Below are positions 5,341 through 37,120 of a stretch of 44,496 bases of DNA, one piece after another; position 1 is the stretch's first letter; each line of letters begins with the position of its first letter. The DNA lies in the IMG/VR virus record IMGVR_UViG_3300047457_000458, positions 1 to 44,496 of that record. The stretch is one strand, 5' to 3'. The position numbers and the translations under genes are program-made. Below the pieces are notes generated by a model. It saw nothing but the letters and a program-made list of their open reading frames with translations, made no database searches and had not been told where the DNA came from. Source of the stretch: a virus.

Positions 5341-7371
5341 ATGGACGGCACGCGCTCGCTGCTGATTGGCAGCGACCTGATGATCTATGGCGTAATCGAT
5401 GGCTCTGGCTTTGGCGACGAAGTCCGCGCGATTGACGTTGTTACGTCGCTGTCTGCCTACAAAGGCAACAGCATCAATGTCCGCGTGAATTCGCCAGGCG
5501 GCAGCGTCACAGAAGCCATCGCAATCTACAACGCCCTTCGCGCTGATGGCCGCACTGTCACTGTGCAGGTTGATGCCATGGCGGCTTCAGCGGCGTCCGT
5601 CGTTGCGATGGCTGGCGATGAAATCATCATGGCCGAGAATGCTTCGCTCATGATCCACGACCCCTGGAGCGTGGTTGCTGGCGGCTCTAGCGACATGCGC
5701 AAGATGGCCGACGAGATTGACCGGATGCGCGACATCATCGTTGACATCTACGTCAAGCGGTCAGGCCAGAAGCGCGAGGACATCCTCCGCATGATGGCTG
5801 AAGAAACCTTCATGAGCGCAGAGCAGGCCATCTCACTTGGCTTCGCCACTTCGTCTGCCGCGCCGATGAAACTGGCGGCTTGTGCGCCGCTTTCCAAGGA
5901 ACAACTCGCTCGCCTGATCTTCGGTGAGCAAATCAATTCGGCAGAGCAGACCGCTCAGCCGGTAACGGCGGTAACCGCCACAAAGAAGGAGGTTGCTTTG
6001 AGCAACTTTGACCCGGCGGTCGAGTCGCCCGCCATTCTGAACCAGGCTCCCGAGGTTGCGCCCGTCGCGTCCCCGGTCGTTGACACCGATGCGATCCGTA
6101 ACGAGGCCATCAAGGCTGAGCGCGACCGCGTCTCGAAAATCCAGATGGCGGTTCGCAACGCCCGTCTGGAGCCGACCTTTGCTGAAGCGCTTATCGCTGA
6201 CGGCGTCTCTGCGGCTGTCGCCAATGAGCGCATCATCGCCAAGTTCGCGGAAGTGAACGCCCCGGCGACTGGCCCCGAAATCCGCAACATCATCGTCGCG
6301 CAGGACGAAGGCCAGACCCGCAATGATGCGATGGAGGAAGCTCTGTCCATCATGCTCGGCGTCAAGGCTGAGCCGTCCGCTGCCGCCCGTCCGTATATGG
6401 ACTGCGGCATCGTGGACATGGCTGCGGAGCGTATCGGTCATCTTGGCTGTTACAGCACCTTCGCTTCCCGCGAAGCCATCCTGAATGCGGCTTTCCACAC
6501 GACCAGCGATTTCCCGATCACTCTGGAAAATGCGCTGAACAAGTCGCTGGCCGCTCGTTACCAGATGGCCATGCCGACCTATCGCGAGTTCTCCTCGCAG
6601 ATGACCTTCAATGACTTCCGGGCTCATAAGGTTATCCGCGCGGGCGACTTCCCGAATCTTCAGGAAGTTAACGAGCATGGGGAAATCCCGGCTGGCACCT
6701 TCTCGGAAGCGTATGAAAGCGCGACCGTCAAGGCTTATGGCGTTCAGGTTGGCTTCTCCCGTCAGCTTCTCGTCAACGACAACCTCGACGCCATTCAGCA
6801 GGTGCTTTCGAGCCGTGCTGACCGCGTTGCGGCTTTCGAGGACGCGACGTTCTACGCCATGATGCTGGTTTCGTCCGGTGTTGGCCCCACCCTGTCGGAA
6901 ACCAGCCGCGCGGTGTTTAACACCACCGACGACACCAAGGCGAACACGGGTGCGGCGATTGCCGTTGCTACGCTCAGCGAAGCTCGCGCGGCTATGCGTA
7001 AGAAGACATCGCTTGACGGTCTGAAGCTGAATGTGATTCCGCGCATTCTGCTTTGCGGCCCGGCTTACGAGCAGATTGCTATCCAATATACGTCGCAGAA
7101 CTACGTCGGTTCCGAGTCCTCCAAGGTCAATCCTTGGGCTGGCTCGCTCCGCGTTGTCGTCACGCCGTATATCACGGGCAATTATTGGTATCTGCTTGCT
7201 GATCCGGCGGCTGGCTCCAACTTCACTTGGGGTTTGCTGAATGGCTATCAGGCTCCGCGTTTCCGCATGGACGAGCCTTTCGGCCAGCAGGGAATGCGCG
7301 TGTCTCTTGAGCATGACTTCGGCTGCGCTGCTGCGGACTTCCGCTTCGGCTACATGAACGCTGGCGCTTAA
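5341..7371 (+). CDS. ClpP-like prohead protease / scaffold / major capsid fusion protein
   Basis: One 676-aa polypeptide combines the maturation protease and HK97-fold capsid protein. Residues 1-190 are a ClpP/S14-like serine protease: the NSPGGSV oxyanion strand at 50-56, nucleophile Ser83 in MAASAAS, and His106 in MIHDPW. The third residue is probably the acid in AEETFMS. Residues 220-330 look like a charged scaffold (delta) segment containing AIKAERDRVSKIQ. Residues 340-676 are the major capsid protein, with KVNPWAGSLRVVV and GLLNGYQAPRFRMDEPF near the end. An internal ribosome site at 5986-6000 could make scaffold-capsid without protease. A strong hairpin follows the stop. Confidence 0.9.
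   Translation: MDGTRSLLIGSDLMIYGVIDGSGFGDEVRAIDVVTSLSAYKGNSINVRVNSPGGSVTEAIAIYNALRADGRTVTVQVDAMAASAASVVAMAGDEIIMAENASLMIHDPWSVVAGGSSDMRKMADEIDRMRDIIVDIYVKRSGQKREDILRMMAEETFMSAEQAISLGFATSSAAPMKLAACAPLSKEQLARLIFGEQINSAEQTAQPVTAVTATKKEVALSNFDPAVESPAILNQAPEVAPVASPVVDTDAIRNEAIKAERDRVSKIQMAVRNARLEPTFAEALIADGVSAAVANERIIAKFAEVNAPATGPEIRNIIVAQDEGQTRNDAMEEALSIMLGVKAEPSAAARPYMDCGIVDMAAERIGHLGCYSTFASREAILNAAFHTTSDFPITLENALNKSLAARYQMAMPTYREFSSQMTFNDFRAHKVIRAGDFPNLQEVNEHGEIPAGTFSEAYESATVKAYGVQVGFSRQLLVNDNLDAIQQVLSSRADRVAAFEDATFYAMMLVSSGVGPTLSETSRAVFNTTDDTKANTGAAIAVATLSEARAAMRKKTSLDGLKLNVIPRILLCGPAYEQIAIQYTSQNYVGSESSKVNPWAGSLRVVVTPYITGNYWYLLADPAAGSNFTWGLLNGYQAPRFRMDEPFGQQGMRVSLEHDFGCAAADFRFGYMNAGA
5986..6000 (+). 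promoter_or_regulatory. Internal Shine-Dalgarno and in-frame TTG start inside the protease-capsid gene
   Basis: A near-perfect AAGGAGG (5986-5992) lies 5 nt before TTG (5998-6000), in frame with the 676-aa gene at codon 220. Initiation here would give a 457-aa scaffold plus capsid protein without the protease. The placement falls in the linker between the protease and scaffold regions. Lambda uses the same logic for C and Nu3, but here the internal product would include the capsid protein itself. Confidence 0.65.
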
Positions 7372-9823: not shown

Positions 9824-9972
9824 CGCCGCGTCAGACAGACGCCTTTACAAAACTTGCGACAGCCAGGAAGCGTGAAGAACTTGCCGACCTAATGTCGATT
9901 ATGGCTCTGGCCTCTCGCGGCGATCCAAAAGAGATTGAGAAGAAATATAAGGAACTCGTAAGGGGCTTCTGA
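9716..9972 (+). CDS. Tail chaperone frameshift extension, gpT-like (-1 frame)
   Basis: Reading the -1 frame relative to the chaperone from about 9716 to the TGA at 9970-9972 gives AAGVERWKIESGWDIARSI and then a helical, charged chain with DAFTKLATARKREELADLM, ending KELVRGF. It has no good start of its own and directly precedes the endonuclease and tape-measure genes, as gpT does. A plausible slip site is the GGGG run at 9715-9718, where tRNA-Gly reading GGG can re-pair at -1. The word TGGAAAA, present at 9735-9741 and again at the chaperone stop (9814-9820), is the other candidate. The exact site is inferred. Confidence 0.55.
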
Positions 9973-9981
9973 TGGCCCTTG

Positions 9982-10029
9982 AAGAATATACATATCCTGA
10001 CTATATTCTTACAATAAGGTTCACTTATT
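9982..10029 (+). promoter_or_regulatory. Two tandem hairpins in the leader of the homing endonuclease
   Basis: AAGAATATA (9982-9990) pairs with TATATTCTT (10002-10010), 9 bp with an 11-nt loop. AATAAG (10013-10018) pairs with CTTATT (10024-10029), 6 bp with a 5-nt loop, and abuts the GGAG ribosome site (10030-10033). Such leader hairpins can hide the ribosome site of homing endonuclease genes on long transcripts. Both stems are AT-rich, so stability is modest. Confidence 0.5.
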
Positions 10030-10040
10030 GGAGAATATCA

Positions 10041-10925
10041 GTGTTAAGGCAAGAACGTCTCCCAAAAAAGTGTGGGATTTACAAGATAACTGATTGTAAA
10101 ACTGGCAAGTTCTACATTGGAAGCTCGAACAGTATTGAAAAGCGGTTTTGGAACCATCTCTACCGCTTGAGGAGAGGGACGCATACAAATGCGATCCTTC
10201 AGGCGATTTTTAACAATCGCCAAGATGCTCTTTTGTTCAGTGTCGTTGAATTATGTGATCTTGAAGAAAAATATGATGTTGAACAGCGATATATCGACGA
10301 ACTGAAGCCGTCTCTGAATATCAAAATGGTCGCTTTTGGTATGCCGAGCGGCCCCGATCATCCAAACTTTGGAATGGTTGTTTCTGAATCTACGAGAGCA
10401 AAACTGAGCAAAGCCCAGAAGGGGCGTGTTTTTAGTGAAGATACTCGTAAAAAATTATCAGACGTTCAAAAGGGACGTTTAAAGGGTCCGTTATCAGAAG
10501 AAACGAAACGTAAAATATCAGACTCAAATTCTGGCGAAAAAGCCTATTGGTTTGGTAAAAAACACGCCCATGAGACTATCAGCAAAATACGAACTGCCGT
10601 TACGGGACACTCTCATACCGACGAGACGAAAGAGAAATGCCGCCAAGCTGTTCTCGGGTTAAAGCGTTCTGAAGAAACAAAGGAAAAGCTGAGGCAGCAA
10701 AAACTGGGCGATAAAAATCCCATGTATGGGAAAAAACGCTCTGCTGAAGCGATAGCGGCTACTGTAGCTGCTAATACAGGAAAGACTCGCAGCAAAGAAA
10801 CTCGCGCGAAACTTAAGGCTGCGTGGGATAGAAGGCGCGCAGAGGGGAAAGTAATGACCCCAGAAATACGCGCAAAAATTTCTGCAACGAAAGCTGCAAG
10901 GAAGGCCGCACAAAACAGCGGCTAA
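10041..10925 (+). CDS. GIY-YIG homing endonuclease with NUMOD3 repeats
   Basis: A free-standing homing endonuclease inserted between tail genes. From a GTG at 10041 (GGAG 7 nt upstream) the protein has CGIYKITD with GIY at 12-14, FYIGSS with YIG at 25-27, and conserved Arg35. These are followed by several NUMOD3-type DNA-binding repeats of the form SEETKRKISD / SEETKEKLRQ (about residues 110-280) and a basic C-terminus. Base composition is visibly more AT-rich than most flanking head and tail genes, consistent with transfer. An in-frame ATG at 9972 overlaps the upstream stop but would add 23 atypical residues, so the GTG start is preferred. Confidence 0.9.
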   Translation: MLRQERLPKKCGIYKITDCKTGKFYIGSSNSIEKRFWNHLYRLRRGTHTNAILQAIFNNRQDALLFSVVELCDLEEKYDVEQRYIDELKPSLNIKMVAFGMPSGPDHPNFGMVVSESTRAKLSKAQKGRVFSEDTRKKLSDVQKGRLKGPLSEETKRKISDSNSGEKAYWFGKKHAHETISKIRTAVTGHSHTDETKEKCRQAVLGLKRSEETKEKLRQQKLGDKNPMYGKKRSAEAIAATVAANTGKTRSKETRAKLKAAWDRRRAEGKVMTPEIRAKISATKAARKAAQNSG

Positions 10926-19181: not shown

Positions 19182-21173
19182 ATGTCTAAAATCTGCCTAA
19201 ACATGATCGTGAAAAACGAGGCTGCGATCATTTGGCGCTGCCTTGAGTCTGTGGCTGACATCGTTGATTGCTACGTCATAGGCGACACCGGCTCAACGGA
19301 CGATACCCAAAAAATCATAAAGGAATTCTTTGACGCAAGAGGGATTTATGGCATAATCACAGAGTTCCCATTTCACGATTTCGCCCAGGCTCGCAACGCG
19401 GCTTTAGAAGCTGCCGAAGCGTCAGATTTGGACTTTGACTATATCCTGTTCGCTGATGCGGATATGGAGCTGATTGTTACTGACGCCAGCTTTAAGGATA
19501 GGCTTGATTTCAACGGCTACATGGTCGAGCAGGCGGCGGCAAACGGCCTGACGTATTCCAATATTCGCGTCATCAAGCGTGGCATTGGCGCTCAATATGT
19601 CGGCGTTACGCATGAATATTGCGACGTCCATTGCCAGCCGGTGCTGCTGAGCGAAATCCGCTATTTCGACCATGCCTGCGGTTCAAACCGGATTGAAAAG
19701 ACAGAGCGCGACATTCGGCTGTTGAGGGCCGGTCTGGAATCGGATCCTGACAATCACCGATACAAGTTCTATCTGGCCCAGACGCTTTACGAAAAGGGCG
19801 ACTATGAAGAAGCCCGCAAGCTATACGCTGAGCGCGCTGCGGCTGGAGGGTTCGAGGAAGAAGCCTGGTTTTCAGTGATGGCCAATGCCCTCGCTGAGCA
19901 GAAGCTAGGTAATGAAGAAGCATTTATCGCCAAGATACTTGCGGCATACCAGCGTCGACCGACGCGCTCCGAGCCGTTATATCATTTGGCTGTTCACTAC
20001 CTTAAAAAGGGACATCACGACCTTGCTTGCCTAATCTGCGAAGAAGGGATGCGGATTAAGCAGCCGAAAGATATCCTGTTCGTAGAGAAGTCCATCTACG
20101 ACCGTGGGTTTTTGGAAATCTTCTCAATCTGCGGCTACTACTCGCGCGGCAGACGGGCGCGGGCGTTTGAGGCGACTAACTGGTTGACGCTGGCCCCGCG
20201 CAGCAGCCGGGACGCTGCGGATATTGCGCGGGCAAACATGCCGCATTATCTGGTGCCGCTGTCTGTTTATCTGGATAGCTGGAAGGCTCAGAAGATTGAG
20301 CTTGCGGTAGATGATGGTTGGTTCCCGCTCAACCCGTCGATTGCCAATATCAACGGCTGGCTGGACGTCGTTGCCAGGACGGTGAATTACGAAGTCCAGT
20401 TTGGTGAGCAAGGCGTCTGCTATGTCACGCAGGACGGCGCACCGATTATCACGCGAAATATGTATCTGCGCCTGAATGACGATTTGACCGTCATCGACCA
20501 GAAGGAACTGCTACCGCCAGAGGATATGCCGGAACCGCGATATAAGGATATTCTTGGCTTTGAAGACCTTCGGCTCGTATCAGTAGATGGTCAGGCATTC
20601 GTCAATGGCACTTGTTGCGAGCTGGAAGAAAACGGCCATCGCAACATGGTTAGGGCAAAGATTGACGGCGACCGGCTGTCGGAACTGACGCTGATAATCC
20701 CTGACGACGTCCCGCGCCAGGTTGAGAAGAACTGGGGTCCGTTCGTCAAGGATGGAAAGCTCCAATATCTCTACAGCTACGGCCCGACGCGCGTTGTAGA
20801 TATGACGGGCGCAACGGTTTCAGTAAATCAGCCGGAAATCCGCGCTGAAGGATTTAGGGGAGGCTCGCAGCTTATTCCGTTTGAGGATGGCCTGCTGTGC
20901 TGCATTCATGAAGTTTCGTGGAATTCAGCCCGTCAGAAGCGGACGTATTACCACCGGATGGTTTTGTTCAACGCGGACATGGTGCTGAGCAAGGTGTCGC
21001 CGCCGTTTGTGTTCAACCATGTGCGATATGAATTCTGTGCTGGGTTAGCCTGGCACAAGGACGGAAAACGACTCGTCTTCTCATACGGCGTTGATGACAA
21101 GGAAGCATGGCTGGGAACAGTCAATGCGGCTGAAGTCATGTCGTTTATGCAAGACGTCGCCTCATTCAAGTGA
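19182..21173 (+). CDS. GT2 glycosyltransferase fused to TPR and GH130-like beta-propeller
   Basis: A 663-aa three-part enzyme. Residues 1-180 are a family 2 glycosyltransferase: LNMIVKNE start, DTGSTDD at 35-41, HDFAQARNAAL at 65-75 and the metal-binding DAD at 92-94. Residues about 190-300 are TPR-like helices (NHRYKFYLAQTLYEKGDYEE). Residues about 340-663 have the five-bladed propeller pattern of GH130-like proteins: GFEDLRLV, EKNWGPFV, RGGSQLIPFEDG, and SYGVDDKEAWLGTV. It probably transfers sugars from a nucleotide donor in the cytoplasm. It lies between two collagen-like fibre genes, which points to virion fibres as acceptors, but lysogenic conversion of host surface glycans is an alternative. 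Confidence 0.82.
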   Translation: MSKICLNMIVKNEAAIIWRCLESVADIVDCYVIGDTGSTDDTQKIIKEFFDARGIYGIITEFPFHDFAQARNAALEAAEASDLDFDYILFADADMELIVTDASFKDRLDFNGYMVEQAAANGLTYSNIRVIKRGIGAQYVGVTHEYCDVHCQPVLLSEIRYFDHACGSNRIEKTERDIRLLRAGLESDPDNHRYKFYLAQTLYEKGDYEEARKLYAERAAAGGFEEEAWFSVMANALAEQKLGNEEAFIAKILAAYQRRPTRSEPLYHLAVHYLKKGHHDLACLICEEGMRIKQPKDILFVEKSIYDRGFLEIFSICGYYSRGRRARAFEATNWLTLAPRSSRDAADIARANMPHYLVPLSVYLDSWKAQKIELAVDDGWFPLNPSIANINGWLDVVARTVNYEVQFGEQGVCYVTQDGAPIITRNMYLRLNDDLTVIDQKELLPPEDMPEPRYKDILGFEDLRLVSVDGQAFVNGTCCELEENGHRNMVRAKIDGDRLSELTLIIPDDVPRQVEKNWGPFVKDGKLQYLYSYGPTRVVDMTGATVSVNQPEIRAEGFRGGSQLIPFEDGLLCCIHEVSWNSARQKRTYYHRMVLFNADMVLSKVSPPFVFNHVRYEFCAGLAWHKDGKRLVFSYGVDDKEAWLGTVNAAEVMSFMQDVASFK

Positions 21174-21545: not shown

Positions 21546-24500
21546 ATGGAATTCCGCATCCCTTCCCGCAAAGCCTTCATCTCAACGGCTGAAGTCAACC
21601 TTACTGGCTCCGTTGCGACAATCGGCGTGCGCGGCTTTACCGGCAGCACCGGGCCACGCGGAGAGCGCGGAGAGACGGGGCCGCAGGGAGAGTCGATTGT
21701 TGGGCCTACGGGCAGCACGGGCGCGCCGTCCAATGTAACCGGACCAACTGGCGCAAGCGTTACCGGGCCAACTGGCAGCCAAGGTTTGTCAATTACCGGG
21801 CCGACCGGCGAGTCTGGCGTAAGCTATACCGGACCCACGGGAAGCCAGGGAATTCGCGGCGATACCGGGCCAACTGGTAGTCAAGGCGAAGCTTCTACAG
21901 TAACCGGGCCTACTGGCGCACAAGGCTTGTCGATTACTGGGCCTACGGGCAGCGCTGGCCGGGATGGAATAGACGGGACGTCATATACCGGGCCGACTGG
22001 CAGTCAGGGAATTCGTGGAGATACTGGGCCTACAGGAGCGTCAATTACTGGCCCCACCGGAAGCGCTGGCGAAGCCTCAGTTGTAACCGGGCCTACGGGA
22101 GCGCAAGGCTTATCAATTACCGGCCCGACCGGAAGCGCTGGAGTTGACGGTGTATCCTATACTGGGCCTACTGGCGCAGACGGATTGAGCTTTACAGGGC
22201 CGACGGGCGCGCAAGGTATTCAAGGAATTCAGGGCGATACGGGGCCAGCATCTACTGTTGCCGGGCCAACTGGCAGCCAAGGTGAAGCTTCTACCGTAAC
22301 CGGCCCGACCGGGCCACAAGGCTTGAGCGTTACTGGATATACAGGGCCTACCGGGAGCGCTGGCGTTGATGGCGTTTCATATACCGGACCCACGGGCGCA
22401 GACGGCTTGAGCGTTACCGGCCCTACAGGCAGTCCTGGTGCTAACTCAGTCGTAACCGGGCCTACGGGCGCAAGCGTTACCGGAGCTACCGGGCCTACGG
22501 GCGGAACGATCATCACTTCTGTTAACGGCTACACGGGCGCGGTCACTCTCGGCGTAAACGACATTAGCGGCGCGCAGGCTTATCACGGGTTTGTCTTTCC
22601 GTATGAAGCGACTGTTGCTTATGACAAGACCGCCCGCAAGTTCACGATTACGCCAACCGGCACGGCGTTTGACGTATGGGTTTTGGGCGTCAAATACACC
22701 AAGACCGGCGCGCAGACTTCAACGGCTCACCCCAACTCGTCTGGCTCGCATTTTCTCTATTATGACGGAAGTGGAAATCTTGAATGGTCAACTGACCCGT
22801 GGGACTTCAAGAATGTTTCGCCGGTTGCCTATGTCTTCTACTCAACAACGGCTGCTGACGGCATACCGTTATTTGAGCTTCATACATACAAGCGCAATCC
22901 TGAGTGGCACGAAAGCCAGCACTTTGCCATTGGCACATTTGTCCGCTCTGGAATTGAGGTTTCAGAATATGTGCTGAATTCTTCTACGGCTAATACCGAC
23001 CTGACATATCAAATATCAGGCGGAATCGTTGTCGATGAGGACATAGAATATACAGCGGCGACTTTGTCCGATGGCGGGCCATATACAATTGTCTATCGGA
23101 CTGGAGCGTCTGAATTTACATGGACGACTGCGGCGACGATCCCGCATCTTTCAGGCGCAACATATATTCAATACAACCAGCTTTCCGGTGGCTCATACGC
23201 TCTAACGCAGCTATCGTCAGGTCAGTTCGTCAATTATTACCTCTTTGCCACAACGTCCACTGAGGCAGCAAAGCGCTTTTTTGTCGTTCCTGGTCAGGCT
23301 GTCCACGCTAACCTATCTTCCGCACAGTCGGAAAGCGTTTCGTCTCTTTCGCTCGGCGCTTTTGCCCTTCCTGAGAGTGTTTGCGTTTGGAAGTTCACAT
23401 ATTCTGCAAACGACAGCTACAACGCCGTAACGGGGCGCGTGCGTATTGTTGAAGTTAACCGCATCACAAACACGCGCGGCTCTCTCAATGTATCAATATC
23501 CACGACGACGCATAACCTTCTGACAGGACGTGACGCGACGGATGCACACCCGGCGTCGTCTATTGCGTTTACGGCTACGGGCGCAATTTCCGCAACAAAT
23601 GTGCAGGACGCGCTTGCAGAGATTGACAGCGAAAAGCAGCCAATCGACGCCGATCTGACCGCGATTGCTGGTCTAGCCGGAACGTCTGGCCTTCTCAAAA
23701 AGACGGCGGCTGATACCTGGACGCTTGATACAACGTCTTATGTCGCGTCCGGTGGGGCTCTTGGCACGCCATCATCCGGCACGCTAACAAGTTGCACAGG
23801 ACTACCGCTTACAACTGGCGTCACAGGAACGCTCGGTATAGGGAACGGTGGCACAAGTCAAACTACTGCCAGCGCAGCATTTAATGCTCTTTCACCTGTT
23901 ACGACTCTTGGAGACATCATATACGGGAGCGCAGCTAACACAGCGACACGACTTCCTGGAAATACAACAACAACACGAAACTTTCTAAGGCAAACTGGAA
24001 CTGGAAGTGTCTCTGCGGCTCCAGCTTGGGACACTGTTACAAAATCAGACGTCGGTTTGAGCAACGTCGAAAACACTGCACTCTCGACATGGGCTGGCTC
24101 AACTAACATTACGACGCTTGGGACTGTTTCAAGTGGCACATGGTCAGCCACAACCATCGCGGTAAATAAAGGCGGCAGCGGCACCAGCACGCAGTTCACC
24201 GCTGGCTCGGTTTTGTTCGCGGGCGCAAGCGGCGTTTATTCGCAGGACAACGCAAATTTCTTTTGGGACAGCGCCAATTCTCGGTTGGGTATCGGGATTA
24301 CGCCGACAGCCAATCTCGACGTTGCAGGCACCGTGCGCTTTACTGGAGGTAATGTTTTTGGCGCTGCTGGAAATGCTGGCAGTCTCAATCTCTATGGCGG
24401 AGAAAATTATAACGTCGGCGCTGGCCTTGTTCTCTATGGTCAGAGCCACGCCACTCAGCCGAATGTTATCAGGTTCACCAACGGCGCGTTTCAAGAGCGG

Positions 24501-25337
24501 ATGCGTATCAGCGCCGCTGGAAATATCGGGATCAACTCTTCCGGCGCAGCCAACGTCCAAGTTCTTGTCAGTGGCACTCCTGTTTCTGGCAGCGCGACAT
24601 CATATATGTTTTTCGTAAGCCCAACTATCCCATCTGCATCTACATCCACGGGTGTTGGGTATTCTACAAGTTTGTCTACCGCCGCAGCAGCCTTCACATG
24701 CGCGTCTCTTATCCATTTTGACGCGAACCAAGGGACAATCGGCGCAACATCAGCCGTAACTAATCAATACGGGTTTAAGGCGGCGGCGTCACTGACTGGC
24801 GCGACAAATAATTACGGGTTTCATAGCGGGATTGCAAACGCGACAGGCCGCTATAACTTCTATGCTTCTGGCACGGCGCCGAATTATTTCGCGGGCGACG
24901 TTGGCATTGGCACAACGGCAAGAGTGAGGCTTGAGGTCGCCGGAGCTAATTTGCCGGTTGCGTTTACAAATACAAGTGGCGCTACCGACGCAAAAACATG
25001 GGATATGGTTTTTAGCGGAACCACCTTTTCGCTTCGTGCAGTCAACGACGCATACTCAGGCGCAAATAGCGCCTATGCAGTCGGTCGATCCGGCTACACG
25101 ATTTCAAACCATATCTGGTATGTCGTGTCGAGCGCAGAAGCAATGCGCCTTGATAGCTCGGGAAACCTCGGCGTCGGGGCCGCTTCCTTTGGAACGTCCG
25201 CAGCCAAGGTAATCGCAATCGGCAACGGCACCGCGCCCACGACTTCCCCTGCTGGCATGGGCCAACTCTACGTTGAGAACGGCGCGCTGAAATACCGGGG
25301 CTCATCCGGCACCGTCACGACCATCGCCAACGCCTAA
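21546..25337 (+). CDS. Large collagen-like tail fibre
   Basis: A 1263-aa fibre. Residues 1-30 are a short anchor. Residues about 30-320 are a long collagen-like region of Gly-x-Thr and Gly-Pro-Thr-Gly units (for example [20 protein letters not shown]). Residues 320-650 form a globular domain. Residues about 650-900 have phage-fibre repeats such as [20 protein letters not shown] and NKGGSGTS, and the C-terminus has [18 protein letters not shown] and [11 protein letters not shown] repeats common at fibre ends. No intramolecular chaperone protease domain was seen. It would be the main receptor-binding fibre, and the threonines of its Gly-x-Thr triplets are possible glycosylation sites. Confidence 0.78.
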
Positions 25338-25677: not shown

Positions 25678-25851
25678 ATGAATACCGTAACCGTTGAATT
25701 TACGCAGGATGAATTGAACACGCTGAGCGCCTTGCTTGACATCGCTGTCAAGGCTGGCGGTATCCAAGCTGCTCGCCCTGCGCTGGCTATTATCGGAAAG
25801 ATTGAGCAGGCGATAGCTGAAAAAAGCGCAGAACAGGTTACGGCTTCCTGA
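25678..25851 (+). CDS. Small conserved protein, 57 aa
   Basis: ATG at 25678 begins one base after the upstream stop, and the TGA at 25849-25851 overlaps the next ATG. The peptide is helical (TVEFTQDELNTLSALLDI, then AGGIQAARPALAIIGKI), with no signal peptide or membrane segment. Tight packing in the operon and ordinary codon use support it as a real gene. Function unknown. Confidence 0.6.
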   Translation: MNTVTVEFTQDELNTLSALLDIAVKAGGIQAARPALAIIGKIEQAIAEKSAEQVTAS

Positions 25852-26429
25852 TGCGCCCTGCTACAGAATGGCAGGATTGCCGTAACCGCTCGCAGGCCAA
25901 TCAGGATATCTTTGTCCTTACCTGTCTCAAATGGAAACGCGGTGGGACATTCGTTGAGATTGGCGCTGCCGATCCTATCCTCTCTAGCAATACAGCTTTG
26001 CTGGTTGATGAGTTTGGATGGACTGGCACAGCCATAGAACTCAACAAAGACTACGGGCCAAAATGGGCGCAGCGGCGTCCTAACGACCTGTTCCTGGGCT
26101 TCAATGCGCTTGAGTTGAACTGGAATGGGTTTCTGACGTCTAGGAAGCGTTTTGACTATTTAAGCCTGGATATAGACCCGCCGGAAGCCACGCTGGCTGT
26201 TTTGGAATCTTTGCCGCTGCATCAGGTGCGTTTCTCCGTCATCACATACGAGCATGACGTCTGGCGCGGCGATGATTGGCCACGAAAGCGCAGCCGGGAA
26301 ATCCTGCTGTCGTATGGATATAAGCTGGCTGTGCCTGACGTGAAGGCGCATGTGTTTTGGCCCTACATGGGAACTGAACCGCAGCCATTCGAGGACTTTT
26401 ACATAGACCCGCAAACCGTCTCTTTTTGA
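25851..26429 (+). CDS. FkbM-family methyltransferase (putative)
   Basis: A 192-aa Rossmann-like protein. FVEIGAADPILSSNT (residues 33-47) is the SAM-binding loop, FGWTGTAIELN places the acidic ribose-binding residue, and FDYLSLDIDPPEATL is the post-strand-4 motif of FkbM-type enzymes. These usually O-methylate sugars. It sits just after the fibre genes and follows a glycosyltransferase by a few genes, so it may methylate the same glycan. It is coupled to the upstream gene by ATGA. Substrate is inferred, not seen. Confidence 0.72.
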   Translation: MRPATEWQDCRNRSQANQDIFVLTCLKWKRGGTFVEIGAADPILSSNTALLVDEFGWTGTAIELNKDYGPKWAQRRPNDLFLGFNALELNWNGFLTSRKRFDYLSLDIDPPEATLAVLESLPLHQVRFSVITYEHDVWRGDDWPRKRSREILLSYGYKLAVPDVKAHVFWPYMGTEPQPFEDFYIDPQTVSF

Positions 26430-28960: not shown

Positions 28961-30007
28961 TTAGTCCGCTTTTGTTCCTATCAAGCCAAGTTCAAGCCTC
29001 AATATCGCCGATTCCGCCAGCCGTTCTTGGTCAGCGTCTTCAATATATCTTTGAGCCTCGCTCATCGTCTTATGGCCCAGCACAGCCATGATTTCCTTGG
29101 CCGAGCATCCGGCTTCCGCCAGTCGCCTACCAGCAGCCGAGCGCAGCCCGTGTGGCTGACATTCCAAAGGCAGACCCGCCGCCGTGATGGCGTCCCGCAA
29201 ATACTGGCTGAAGCCGTCCACCGTGAAGGGCTTTCCAAAAGCCGTATTCAAAATGGTGACATGCTCACGCGGAGCCGCGTCAAGGACCGCCCGCAACCTC
29301 TTGTCGAGCGGCAAGGTCAGTTTCGCGCCGGTCTTTTGCTGGATAACCCGCATGGTCCGCAGGGTCGTATCCGCCCAAGTCATTCGGTGAGCGTCTGACC
29401 GTCGCTGGCCCGTATAGAGCATAAGGGAAAAGGCCAGACGCTCCCGCGTTCCAATTGGCCAGCGAGCCTCAAATTGCGCTATTTCTGCCTCAGTCCATGC
29501 CCTGACTCGCCCGCTTTTTGGACGTTTGATGCCTTGGGACGGATCGTGAGTCAGCCATTTCTTTTTGATGGCGTGTCTGATAAGAACGCGCAGCATCTTC
29601 AAAAGCGCGAGCTTCTGTCCCGGCTTGTCCCTATAGGGGCACAAAATCTTTTCTTCGATGCGCTCTATGGTCAGGCCGGAAAGGCTGCGATGGCCGTGCT
29701 GTTCAGTCAGGATTTTCAACCGGGACTGATAGCCCGTCTTGGTCGTCGGTCGTAGGTCGTAATAGCCGTCCGATTGCTGATAGGACAGGATCAGCGCGCC
29801 AATCGTTCCGGCATCCGGCTTCTTTTTCTCTGCGCCAATAATGACGGACCCGCCCAAGGCTTCCGCATAGGCAATCTGAAACGCATCACTCCACAACGGA
29901 CCTGGAATGGCGATGCGTTTTTGTCCAGGCTTCCTGAAATAAATTCTCTTCTTTCCATGACGGTCATGGAAAGTCTCAACGTATTTCGGCTTGTCTGCGC
30001 TCATCAA
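28961..30007 (-). CDS. int: Tyrosine-recombinase integrase
   Basis: A 348-aa integrase that joins attP to the host attB. The C-terminal catalytic domain has the first Arg in MLYTGQRRSDAHRMTW, HGLR with His286 and Arg289, a second His at 312 (LGHKTMS) and the nucleophile Tyr321 (RYIEDADQ). The N-terminus carries an arm-binding domain (YVETFHDRHGKKRIYFR) and a core-binding SAM-like domain. It is the last gene of the leftward early operon, its start overlaps the excisionase-like gene by four bases, and it faces the attP region. Confidence 0.93.
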   Translation of the reverse strand: MMSADKPKYVETFHDRHGKKRIYFRKPGQKRIAIPGPLWSDAFQIAYAEALGGSVIIGAEKKKPDAGTIGALILSYQQSDGYYDLRPTTKTGYQSRLKILTEQHGHRSLSGLTIERIEEKILCPYRDKPGQKLALLKMLRVLIRHAIKKKWLTHDPSQGIKRPKSGRVRAWTEAEIAQFEARWPIGTRERLAFSLMLYTGQRRSDAHRMTWADTTLRTMRVIQQKTGAKLTLPLDKRLRAVLDAAPREHVTILNTAFGKPFTVDGFSQYLRDAITAAGLPLECQPHGLRSAAGRRLAEAGCSAKEIMAVLGHKTMSEAQRYIEDADQERLAESAILRLELGLIGTKAD

Positions 30008-34320: not shown

Positions 34321-34534
34321 TGGTCATTTCTTCCGTAAGAACGCGATTGTAGCTTTCGACGGCTTTGCGAACTGCTGGCGCATATTCGCTATCGCAGCAC
34401 AGCGTCAGGTGATTGATTGACCGCTTGTCGCCTGTGTCTTTGACGCAGATTCCAATGCCATTGCGCATTTCAACCGTGAGCAAGTATGGCAACCCGCTCA
34501 TATCAAAGCGCAGGATTATCCCATCAGCGTTCAT
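34310..34534 (-). CDS. Small early protein of unknown function
   Basis: A 74-aa beta-rich protein with the core LRFDMSGLPYLLTVEMRNG and a helical end (YAPAVRKAVESYNRVLTEEM). The ATG overlaps the upstream stop (ATGA). No family recognised. Its place between two recombination-associated genes suggests that it belongs to the same module. Confidence 0.5.
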   Translation of the reverse strand: MNADGIILRFDMSGLPYLLTVEMRNGIGICVKDTGDKRSINHLTLCCDSEYAPAVRKAVESYNRVLTEEMTNAK

Positions 34535-34989
34535 TGCCCGCCCATTTTGCTTGAATGAGACTTTGCAGATTTTATTGCTTCTTCATGGGCTAGAATGCGA
34601 GCGGCCATTTGATCCGGCGCACCGCTTGGATCAGTGGCATTCGTATTCCTACGCAGCCTATCTGCCCGTCGCAATTTACGGTTGGCAGACGCCAGCCAGT
34701 TATCAATTACGTCAGAGTTTTCGCTTGGAAGCGGGACACGATAGAGACCATCCGACAGCTTTAGCGCCATGCCTTGGTCAAGGAGTTTTATGCGGACATA
34801 ATCGACCGCACTAACTTCAAGAAGGTCCAGGCGCTGAAACTGCTTTCTAGTTCCAATGTCTGGCACTTCTATTCCAAGCACTCCTTGAACGAATGACTGC
34901 TCAAACACCGCCCCATAGGTGTTATAGCCAGCCTCGACGACTGCGTGCCAAAGGCGTTCTCCGGGAGTCATATTGCTGCCGTCAAGCAT
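34531..34989 (-). CDS. Early protein of unknown function
   Basis: A 152-aa protein beginning MLDGSNMTPGERLWHAVVEA with ATG 34989 inside the end of the upstream gene and GGGGAGG in front. It has a helical first part, a winged-looking middle (QRLDLLEVSAVDYVRIKLLD then LKLSDGLYRVPLPSE) and a basic helical end. A DNA-binding role is possible but no clear family was recognised. Confidence 0.5.
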   Translation of the reverse strand: MLDGSNMTPGERLWHAVVEAGYNTYGAVFEQSFVQGVLGIEVPDIGTRKQFQRLDLLEVSAVDYVRIKLLDQGMALKLSDGLYRVPLPSENSDVIDNWLASANRKLRRADRLRRNTNATDPSGAPDQMAARILAHEEAIKSAKSHSSKMGGQ

Positions 34990-35581
34990 GGATTACCTCC
35001 CCTTTAGCGCGGCCAAATGTCGGGCGAAAATCCCCAAACCCGCCGTAGCGCGCGGTATGCTCAACAATGCGCGTCAAGCTGTCCGGGTCGATTACAGAAT
35101 TCTCGTATTCAAGCTCAGTCTCGAATGACCAGTCATGGAAAATCGGGAACGCCTTGACGACGCGGACTTGGCCCTGCGGAAGAATCATAACGTGGCGAAA
35201 GTCAAGATTTCCGACGATATCTTCAGGTGACTTAACCTTGTTGCGGTCGCGGAATGACAGGGCTGTTTTGTTCTCTGTCGTGAACATGGCACCGCGAATG
35301 GTGTCACGGGAAAGCTTAGCGACCTTGAACGCCGAGCAGGCAATAGCTTCTGATAGCCATGTCGTGGGAACATAAATTCCGATCTTGTCGTCAAAGAAAA
35401 TCTTTGACCGGATTTCAAGTTCACGCAGCCGGAAATAGTCGTCATCAGTGCGGCGAGCTTTCTTTGCATTAATCTGCGCCATTGCCCGCGCATACTCGTT
35501 GAACCTGTCAACCGTCTGCGGGTTATTCTGCAACAGCGGAGAAACTCCAGTGATCTTTACCCGTGCATTCTTCATAGACAT
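34982..35581 (-). CDS. Conserved phage protein, first gene after the hairpin array
   Basis: A 199-aa protein that starts at ATG 35581 (GAGGAAAACAAC upstream). The opening MSMKNARVKITGVSPLLQNN, the middle YVPTTWLSEAIACSAFKVAK and the C-terminal YGGFGDFRPTFGRAKGEV mark a conserved phage family of unknown function, usually near recombination genes; the alternating strands and the final Gly-rich loop look ferredoxin-like. The leader upstream of its ribosome site contains the first copy of the hairpin repeat. An annotation from the ATG at 35644 would translate through this repeat and is rejected. Confidence 0.6.
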   Translation of the reverse strand: MSMKNARVKITGVSPLLQNNPQTVDRFNEYARAMAQINAKKARRTDDDYFRLRELEIRSKIFFDDKIGIYVPTTWLSEAIACSAFKVAKLSRDTIRGAMFTTENKTALSFRDRNKVKSPEDIVGNLDFRHVMILPQGQVRVVKAFPIFHDWSFETELEYENSVIDPDSLTRIVEHTARYGGFGDFRPTFGRAKGEVIHA

Positions 35582-35602
35582 GTTGTTTTCCTCTTTTGTC
35601 TG

Positions 35603-36139
35603 AGCAATCCGCCTTGCCAGTTGTTTAGCGCTGGCAAAACGCATCGCTCATACTTTCATCACTAAGACTTGCGCTTTGATGCCCTACAACAAAGTTCACT
35701 TGGACCGTTTAAGCGATCCGCCTTGCTCGCCGTAACGAGCAAAACGCATTGCTTGTCACATATTTTCCATGCGCTACATTTCGTCTCAATTCGACACGAT
35801 TCATTGCTGGCTCGCTTCATCTCGACGACTTGCTAGTTGGACCTTGCGATCCGCTTTGCTCATCCTCCGATGGGCAAAACGCATTGCTTATTGCTTCGCT
35901 TCGATGCGAACCTCAGCACCTATATTCCTAGCGTTTCCATTCGATTCCCATCTTTGCGCCCCATTTGGACCTTGCGATCCGGGTTGTTCACCTTTCGATG
36001 AACAACTCGCATTGCAAATAATCACGCTACCGTTTGCTGCGTTACGCATTAATTCCTTGACTATATTTTCGGTTTGGTTCGCTTCTTTTGGACCTTGCGA
36101 TCCGCCTTGCAGACCCTTCGATCTGCAAAGCGCATCGCT
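35603..36139. repeat. Array of five hairpin repeats with covarying stems
   Basis: Copies lie at 35603-35648, 35700-35754, 35837-35889, 35965-36015 and 36088-36139, spaced 103 to 137 bp apart in a stretch without a convincing gene. The last four open with TTGGACC. All share GCGATCCGCC-like (or GCAATCCGCC) sequence, a 7-bp stem beginning TTG and ending CAA, and CGCATTGCT or CGCATCGCT. The four inner stem bases differ (CCAG, CTCG, CTCA, TTCA, CAGA) yet pair in all five copies (CTGG, CGAG, TGGG with one G-U, TGAA, TCTG). Loops are 6-10 nt. The outer GCGAT also pairs with ATTGC or ATCGC. This is what a structured RNA under selection looks like; the transcribed strand is unknown, but on the minus strand it lies in the leader of the recombination genes. 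Confidence 0.85.
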
Positions 36140-36192
36140 ATTTAATTCCGTTCGGAGCTATTAAATTCCTTTCGACTCACATCCTCTGTTTA

Positions 36193-36291
36193 CTATTCAT
36201 CACACTGTCCTAAGCAATATTTGGCCGCAGCCAACATTGCGTAGAACCACAATGCAGGAGCTAAAAATCCGATTACAAACCAACCAATCAT
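36193..36291 (-). CDS. Small membrane protein, 32 aa
   Basis: ATG 36291 with a strong AGGAG 6-7 nt upstream; stop TAG at 36193-36195. The peptide is almost one hydrophobic helix (MIGWFVIGFLAPALWFYAML) followed by a short tail with two cysteines. Good ribosome site and membrane character support a real small early gene; it sits directly upstream of the hairpin array. Confidence 0.55.
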   Translation of the reverse strand: MIGWFVIGFLAPALWFYAMLAAAKYCLGQCDE

Positions 36292-36603: not shown

Positions 36604-36770
36604 TTGCGCCGTTCGATCGTTTTGACGTCAAAAACTGGCGTCATCATCTCCGCAAGCTTTTTGGCTTTCTCACGCGCCTTGTCTTCGCTGACAGAGTGGA
36701 CTGAAACAGTCTTCATGCCATCAGCGGTCAAGCCAGCGACGTCAAAGAGGATTGGTTTTAGTTTCTTCAT
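36600..36770 (-). CDS. Small early protein, 56 aa
   Basis: ATG 36770 overlaps the upstream stop (ATGA), giving the start MKKLKPILFDVAGLTADGMK, a strand-loop-helix protein ending DVKTIERRK. A longer frame from 36824 would overlap the upstream gene by 58 nt and is not preferred. No family recognised. Confidence 0.5.
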   Translation of the reverse strand: MKKLKPILFDVAGLTADGMKTVSVHSVSEDKAREKAKKLAEMMTPVFDVKTIERRK

Positions 36771-37120
36771 ATCCAGTATCCAGCGTAATGCCCGCCACGG
36801 CTGCGCGGCGGTGCCATCCCGCAAATGTCAGCAAGTATGGCTTCGCCAACGCGCGCATGATTGGCGAGCAATGTGAATTCTGCTGATGGCCAGTTGACCA
36901 TCCATTCAACGCCGGGGCCGTTATCCAGTTCCAGCGTTACTCCAATGTCAGTGACGTTCCACTCAGGCCCAGCGCCGGGATCACCGCCGTTGATGTAGTC
37001 AGCAACAGCGGGATAGCCCCAGTCTGTTATTTCATACGTAACCAGCAACGTGGCCTCAAAGCCCATAAAGCTGATGTAGGTTTCGACTGTCTCGCCGTTG
37101 TTGAACATGGCCACGCTCAT
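36767..37120 (-). CDS. Early protein of unknown function
   Basis: A 117-aa acidic, aromatic-rich protein (ETYISFMGFEATLLVTYEIT, DIGVTLELDNGPGVEWMV). ATG 37120 overlaps the upstream small gene's stop (TGATG). No family recognised; its strand-rich sequence may be a small beta domain. Confidence 0.5.
   Translation of the reverse strand: MSVAMFNNGETVETYISFMGFEATLLVTYEITDWGYPAVADYINGGDPGAGPEWNVTDIGVTLELDNGPGVEWMVNWPSAEFTLLANHARVGEAILADICGMAPPRSRGGHYAGYWI

Follow-up and report, generated by a model that had tools for sequence, protein, structure and literature searches.

Phage-carried VIPR systems, described in a preprint of April 2026 and proposed as an ancestor of CRISPR, are CRISPR-like systems that address the DNA of rival phages with a gapped code (PMC13142463). 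They consist of a RAMP protein (Vipr), a vap gene and RNAs of about 100 nt (vrRNAs), each with 9–16 YNNGG repeats followed by a structured tail; in the target DNA the NN pairs are read with one base skipped per unit (PMC13142463). The main-text experiments concern GGY/NN vrRNA systems, in which binding, repression of reporters, defence against phages and induction of prophages are reported (PMC13142463). GGY is the triplet of the vrRNAs of Escherichia phage SUSP1 and a Pseudomonas fulva prophage, and "a related consensus" is allowed in other types; the tail of the SUSP1 clade is a pseudoknot, and hammerhead ribozymes lie between the vrRNAs of some arrays (PMC13142463).

Here we analysed a stretch of 44,496 nt from a virus (IMG/VR record IMGVR_UViG_3300047457_000458; the window). 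With a probability of roughly 0.93, the minus strand at 35590–36210 carries the five vrRNA genes that precede vipr and vap in a VIPR system (Table 1). An initial annotation of this DNA knew of no described family with such a layout, but VIPR systems fit it in layout, protein and code (PMC13142463). The window holds a small relative of Vipr with a predicted RAMP fold, five-base repeats made of a constant triplet plus NN, a structured 3' tail and vap beside vipr. The exact GGY triplet is absent, the units being G-H-R in the window, GCA or GAA in its clade and GGT in the control phage wV8. This mismatch counts against the SUSP1/P. fulva form but not against VIPR as defined in PMC13142463. The kind of system is thus already known, although very recently described, and the locus is a further, uncharacterised member whose repeat letters differ from the tested ones.

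The five copies of about 50 nt first noticed at 35603–36139 are indeed present. While five such units occupy 35590–36140, the full array extends from about 35590 to about 36210. A covariance model of the five copies yielded exactly five full matches in the window, all on the minus strand (E 6e-24 to 9e-17), and its weaker plus-strand matches are the same hairpins read backwards. The genes assigned around the array, from 36767–37120 down to the integrase at 28961–30007, are also on the minus strand, so the transcript would run through tract and tail five times, then a ribosome-binding site (AGAGGAAAACAAC) and finally vipr. Since the minus strand is the functional one, the copy initially taken as the first does lie in the leader of the adjoining gene, vipr, but it closes the array, immediately ahead of the start codon. 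The 50–75 nt between the hairpins, formerly regarded as spacer, are tandem repeats of 5 nt; the hairpins are therefore only half of the object, and the overlooked half is the informative one.

Table 1 Features assigned to the putative VIPR locus of the window.
Feature	Coordinates	Strand	Description	Guide NN pairs
vrRNA 1 guide tract	36141..36210	-	5'-most on transcript; ~14 NN-G-H-R units, 5' end approximate (period-5 analysis)	GG GT AT TA AA AG GT TC AG TT TA CC CG TT
vrRNA 1 tail	36088..36140	-	stem-loop and GGATC-GCAA-GGTCC hairpin	
vrRNA 2 guide tract	36018..36087	-	14 units	AA GC CC CC AA AG AG TT GC AC GC CG GC AT
vrRNA 2 tail	35965..36017	-		
vrRNA 3 guide tract	35890..35964	-	15 units	AT GC AA GG TC TG AC AG TA GT GA TC TC GC GC
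vrRNA 3 tail	35837..35889	-		
vrRNA 4 guide tract	35755..35836	-	11 regular units (35755-35809); phase lost further 5'	CA AT TC TC TT AC AT GC TG AA GT (35755-35809)
vrRNA 4 tail	35700..35754	-	second hairpin with longer loop	
vrRNA 5 guide tract	35650..35699	-	10 units	GT CT TT GG TC GC AG TA AT AG
vrRNA 5 tail	35590..35649	-	within vipr leader; lacks second hairpin; outer stem GAGCGAT/ATTGCTC strong	
vipr	34982..35581	-	199 aa; RAMP (Cas7-like, predicted fold); phrog_4652	
vap-like accessory gene	34531..34989	-	152 aa; overlaps vipr end	

Searches with the array were sparing in matches. Rfam (cmscan over the whole window) returned none at the gathering score, hammerhead ribozymes included, and blastn of the array against INPHARED none either; scans for promoter-like and terminator-like signals were uninformative. 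A DNA search for the hairpin pattern among viral and genome contigs brought in two candidates that seem unrelated, namely L006, a chance match, and L005, a coding tandem repeat (GCAATGCGGATTGC-like, 1477–1530, within a phage ORF) whose letters resemble the window tails. Two open reading frames touch the array: a plus-strand ORF across it (35769–36164, 131 aa) was taken as chance, and the start at 35644 of a 220-aa ORF, inside the tail of vrRNA 5, is probably not used.

When divided into blocks of five counted from each tail start, the inter-hairpin sequence resolves into NN-G-H-R units. G stands at position 3 in 47/64 units (73%), and position 4 has A, C or T in 62/64, for the most part A or C. 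At position 5, A occurs in 40/64 and G in 10/64; positions 1 and 2 are nearly free. The information summed by phase amounts to 1.65, compared with 0.14 ± 0.06 in dinucleotide shuffles (z ~25). When periods from 2 to 10 were scanned the signal appeared only at 5 and its multiple 10, and across the entire window, both strands included, the five tracts rank top, all on the minus strand. Structured RNA repeats in an early-operon leader could also be cis-acting antitermination or processing elements, i.e., put-like hairpins in series without guide function. This explanation is very improbable, as it accounts neither for the period-5 tracts, nor for the arrays that some relatives carry downstream of vipr, nor for the guide-target matches of the clade described below. 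The serial antitermination sites considered in the initial annotation find no support; its RNA sponge is likewise unsupported.

The reading of the hairpin stems as selected for RNA structure proved right. Lack of covariation in homologues had been named as one observation that would overturn it; the comparison was made and covariation was found. In an alignment of four window and seven L007 tail copies, the compensatory changes are genuine on the minus strand, with 0 of 500 shuffles reaching the observed covariation score. There, standard pairs fill 89% of pair cells, both sides have changed in 8 of 17 pairs, and double-change cells number 27 (8.6 ± 2.2 in shuffles); pairing falls to 29–42% when the partners are slid. 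Models with a pseudoknot or with a nested outer stem fit this alignment equally well. The GGACC box noted earlier as conserved is there, but it forms the 3' arm of a second, small hairpin (minus-strand sequence GGATC-GCAA-GGTCC), which covaries in relatives too. In a comparison of 47 tails from the clade, the final hairpin ahead of the following tract has 97% pairing with its own partner strand as opposed to 53% with the strands of other tails, its stems are of 30 distinct kinds, and a search for it found 5/5 pairing in 89% of tails vs. 28% of shuffled controls. The sequence of the tail thus changes and its RNA structure is retained. Inverted repeats interspersed close to recombination genes might suggest elements that act as DNA rather than RNA (iterons of a replication origin, REP-like or recombination sites). 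However, stem sequences vary with pairing kept, and relatives have wholly different tail sequences in which the structure and the NN-G code nevertheless persist, so that a DNA-level role is barely credible. The earlier option of a small-RNA family was the correct one, the hairpins being vrRNA tails. Their covariation points to the parts of the RNA that Vipr or a processing step may hold, and the case illustrates how an easily seen motif, here the hairpins, can mask the informative part, here the NN code.

The product of vipr has no match in Pfam and belongs to phrog_4652, whose function is unannotated. Its single PDB match is entry 36pp, "SUSP1 Vipr protein" (E 6e-22, nearly the whole length). 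An AlphaFold2 model built from 21 aligned relatives (pLDDT 89.8) is predicted to adopt the Cas7/Csm3 RAMP fold: the best 50 Foldseek and VIA-align rows comprise only CRISPR effectors of the Cas7/Csm3/gRAMP kind, with a best Z of 10.8 over 153 residues. The vap product matches neither Pfam nor PHROG. Its family occurs near vipr in 17 relatives, and profile iteration connects it to gene 94, which adjoins vipr in Felixounavirus wV8.

All 24 viral contigs that were fetched as encoding a Vipr relative have period-5 tracts beside vipr. These are spaced about 100 nt apart and lie mostly upstream of the gene (downstream in L022, L023, L024 and L028), and their unit is NN-GCA, or NN-GAA in L028. The same procedure recovered NN-GGT in phage wV8, the SUSP1-like positive control, which we take to be a relative of SUSP1, and NN-GCA in phiHSIC and Vibrio phage 1.266.O. 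Genes of phrog_4652 occur in 14 of 398 Pseudomonadota genomes, and other G-initial triplets are found near most of the more distant ones. The phiHSIC-like GCA/NN members of the clade, very regular in L018, L021 and L025, could serve as compact systems for probing the scaffold bases.

Several of these loci show features of their own. The public record of wV8 bears repeat_region "DR_4" on both sides of vipr (L196, 2262–2319 and 3655–3712), at the positions of the vrRNA units. In L029 (5001–5297) and L030 (3516–3812) the vipr frame follows the family for only about 42 residues and terminates at 98 aa, while vrRNA-like tracts persist upstream, as in a broken or rearranged VIPR locus. Very long tracts of 23–31 consecutive units lie 589–1090 nt past the vipr start in L023 and are perhaps the overlapping ("staggered") vrRNAs of PMC13142463. 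One bacterial genome (G272) has two phrog_4652 genes on separate contigs (L048 and L062).

The code was tested by reading 116 guides against 140 loci, none of them brought in through guide patterns. With one skipped base we obtained 13 perfect matches of nine units, from four guides; there were none with zero or two skipped bases, and none in five trials with shuffled unit order. As the 140 loci are enriched in VIPR-bearing elements by construction and the matched ones are related to one another, these counts test the rule and not the frequency of targets. The window's own clade is represented by guide L014_1: its match in L054 spans ten consecutive units (20/20), and those in L052, L053 and L055 come close to this. 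The matched gene encodes an AAA_24 ATPase (phrog_124, "Sak4-like ssDNA annealing protein") and adjoins another VIPR locus, and the skipped base falls on the codon wobble position. The same Sak4-like gene family is matched by guides L055_GCM1, L056_GCM1 and L058_GGY1. A guide of the window's clade thereby obeys the rule of one skipped nucleotide, and the clade provides an independent test of the code, as its scaffold triplet is different and yet the guide decodes with exactly one base skipped. That guides match genes in other VIPR-bearing elements supports a use of phage against phage.

For the window's own guides, the matches only suggest targets. An eight-unit pattern of guide 4 occurs in 27 IMG/VR contigs, against about 20 expected by our own chance estimate. 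In five of them (L066, L075, L077, L083 and L085) the same site lies within PF25209 phage capsid genes, at the motif SFQA[IM]VNDD or TFQAIVNDD. In L077 the match covers ten consecutive units (20/20; 21/22 with an eleventh), for which we estimate a chance expectation of about 0.1, and L075 and L077 share a neighbouring head gene with the window. The window capsid has FSRQLLVNDN at this site, so guide 4 would not target its carrier's own capsid. Guide 2 was found in 24 contigs; most look like chance, and in one (L172) the match runs, in wobble phase, over 11 consecutive units of a 571-aa frame (our chance estimate, ~0.02). We consider both phage targets candidates to be followed up. Exact nine-unit patterns of guides 3 and 5 had no match in IMG/VR, nor had their ten-unit patterns with one or two mismatches in the 398 Pseudomonadota genomes; guide 1, scored against the loci already collected, gave no target, and none of the guides has a good match in the window itself. 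A by-eye reading of guides 2, 3 and 5 as motifs of this same protease-capsid gene was not supported by scoring against shuffled guides on 80 capsid homologues plus the five guide 4 contigs. The window gene at 5341–7371 (plus strand) encodes a ClpP-type protease fused to a PF25209 major capsid protein, to whose C-terminal part L090 is 96% identical. Other plus-strand ORFs resemble, by eye, a GIY-YIG homing endonuclease among the structural genes (9972–10925) and, in the tail region, a glycosyltransferase (19182–21173) and an FkbM-type methyltransferase (25851–26429), with a collagen-like repeat protein (21546–25337) between the latter two.

The main rival is a decaying array, derived from a working VIPR system, in which some or all guides no longer function. 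The five-base units are less strict here than in relatives (73% with G at position 3, vs. 86–100% in most), tract 4 has a phase break, the last tail is incomplete, and guides 1, 3 and 5 are without a target in the searches above. However, the tail stems still covary, vipr and vap are both intact, and the candidate targets of guides 2 and 4 match over long consecutive runs in wobble phase; decay is an unlikely explanation. The preferred reading remains a VIPR locus. A more specific version is tentative and somewhat doubtful: the clade would form a VIPR lineage distinguished by a scaffold alphabet of its own (G-[ACT]-R/NN here; GCA/NN or GAA/NN in relatives), read with a 1-nt skip, whose array is aimed at structural genes of competitors, the protease-capsid among them, with the carrier's homologue diverged at the site.

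For this locus we infer expression, processing, complex formation, repression and the window's own targets, with a mechanism taken by homology from the tested SUSP1 and P. fulva systems. Each vrRNA would comprise a 5' tract of about 10–15 five-base NN-G-H-R units and a structured 3' tail. Copies of the Cas7-like RAMP protein Vipr may coat the tract and hold the constant triplets out of pairing, such that each NN pair is presented to DNA. The target would be read NN-x-NN-x, the skipped base in genes usually being the wobble base of a codon, and binding would repress genes of competing phages or prophages.

Compared with Class 1 CRISPR-Cas, the locus has in common a Vipr whose predicted fold matches Cas7/Csm3 and a guide-RNA array with a structured handle. 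Near-identical direct repeats around unique spacers are lacking, however, with the guide information residing in NN pairs inside the repeat, and no further cas genes were seen among the window proteins and neighbouring genes examined. TIGR-Tas (PMC12045711) likewise recognises DNA through short guide RNAs that phages encode as an array, but its protein family differs from the RAMP of the window, as do its guides from the 5-nt units with NN code found here. The closest system is VIPR type II of SUSP1 and the P. fulva prophage (PMC13142463). The window differs in its constant triplet (G-H-R, and GCA or GAA in relatives, instead of GGY), in an unrelated tail sequence and in having all five units upstream of vipr, whereas SUSP1 has one upstream and three downstream. 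Both share the RAMP protein Vipr, an adjacent vap of the same family by profile (as compared with wV8, not SUSP1 itself), phage-borne units of about 100 nt made of 5-nt repeats and a structured 3' tail, and an NN code with one skipped base, shown on the window's side for its clade.
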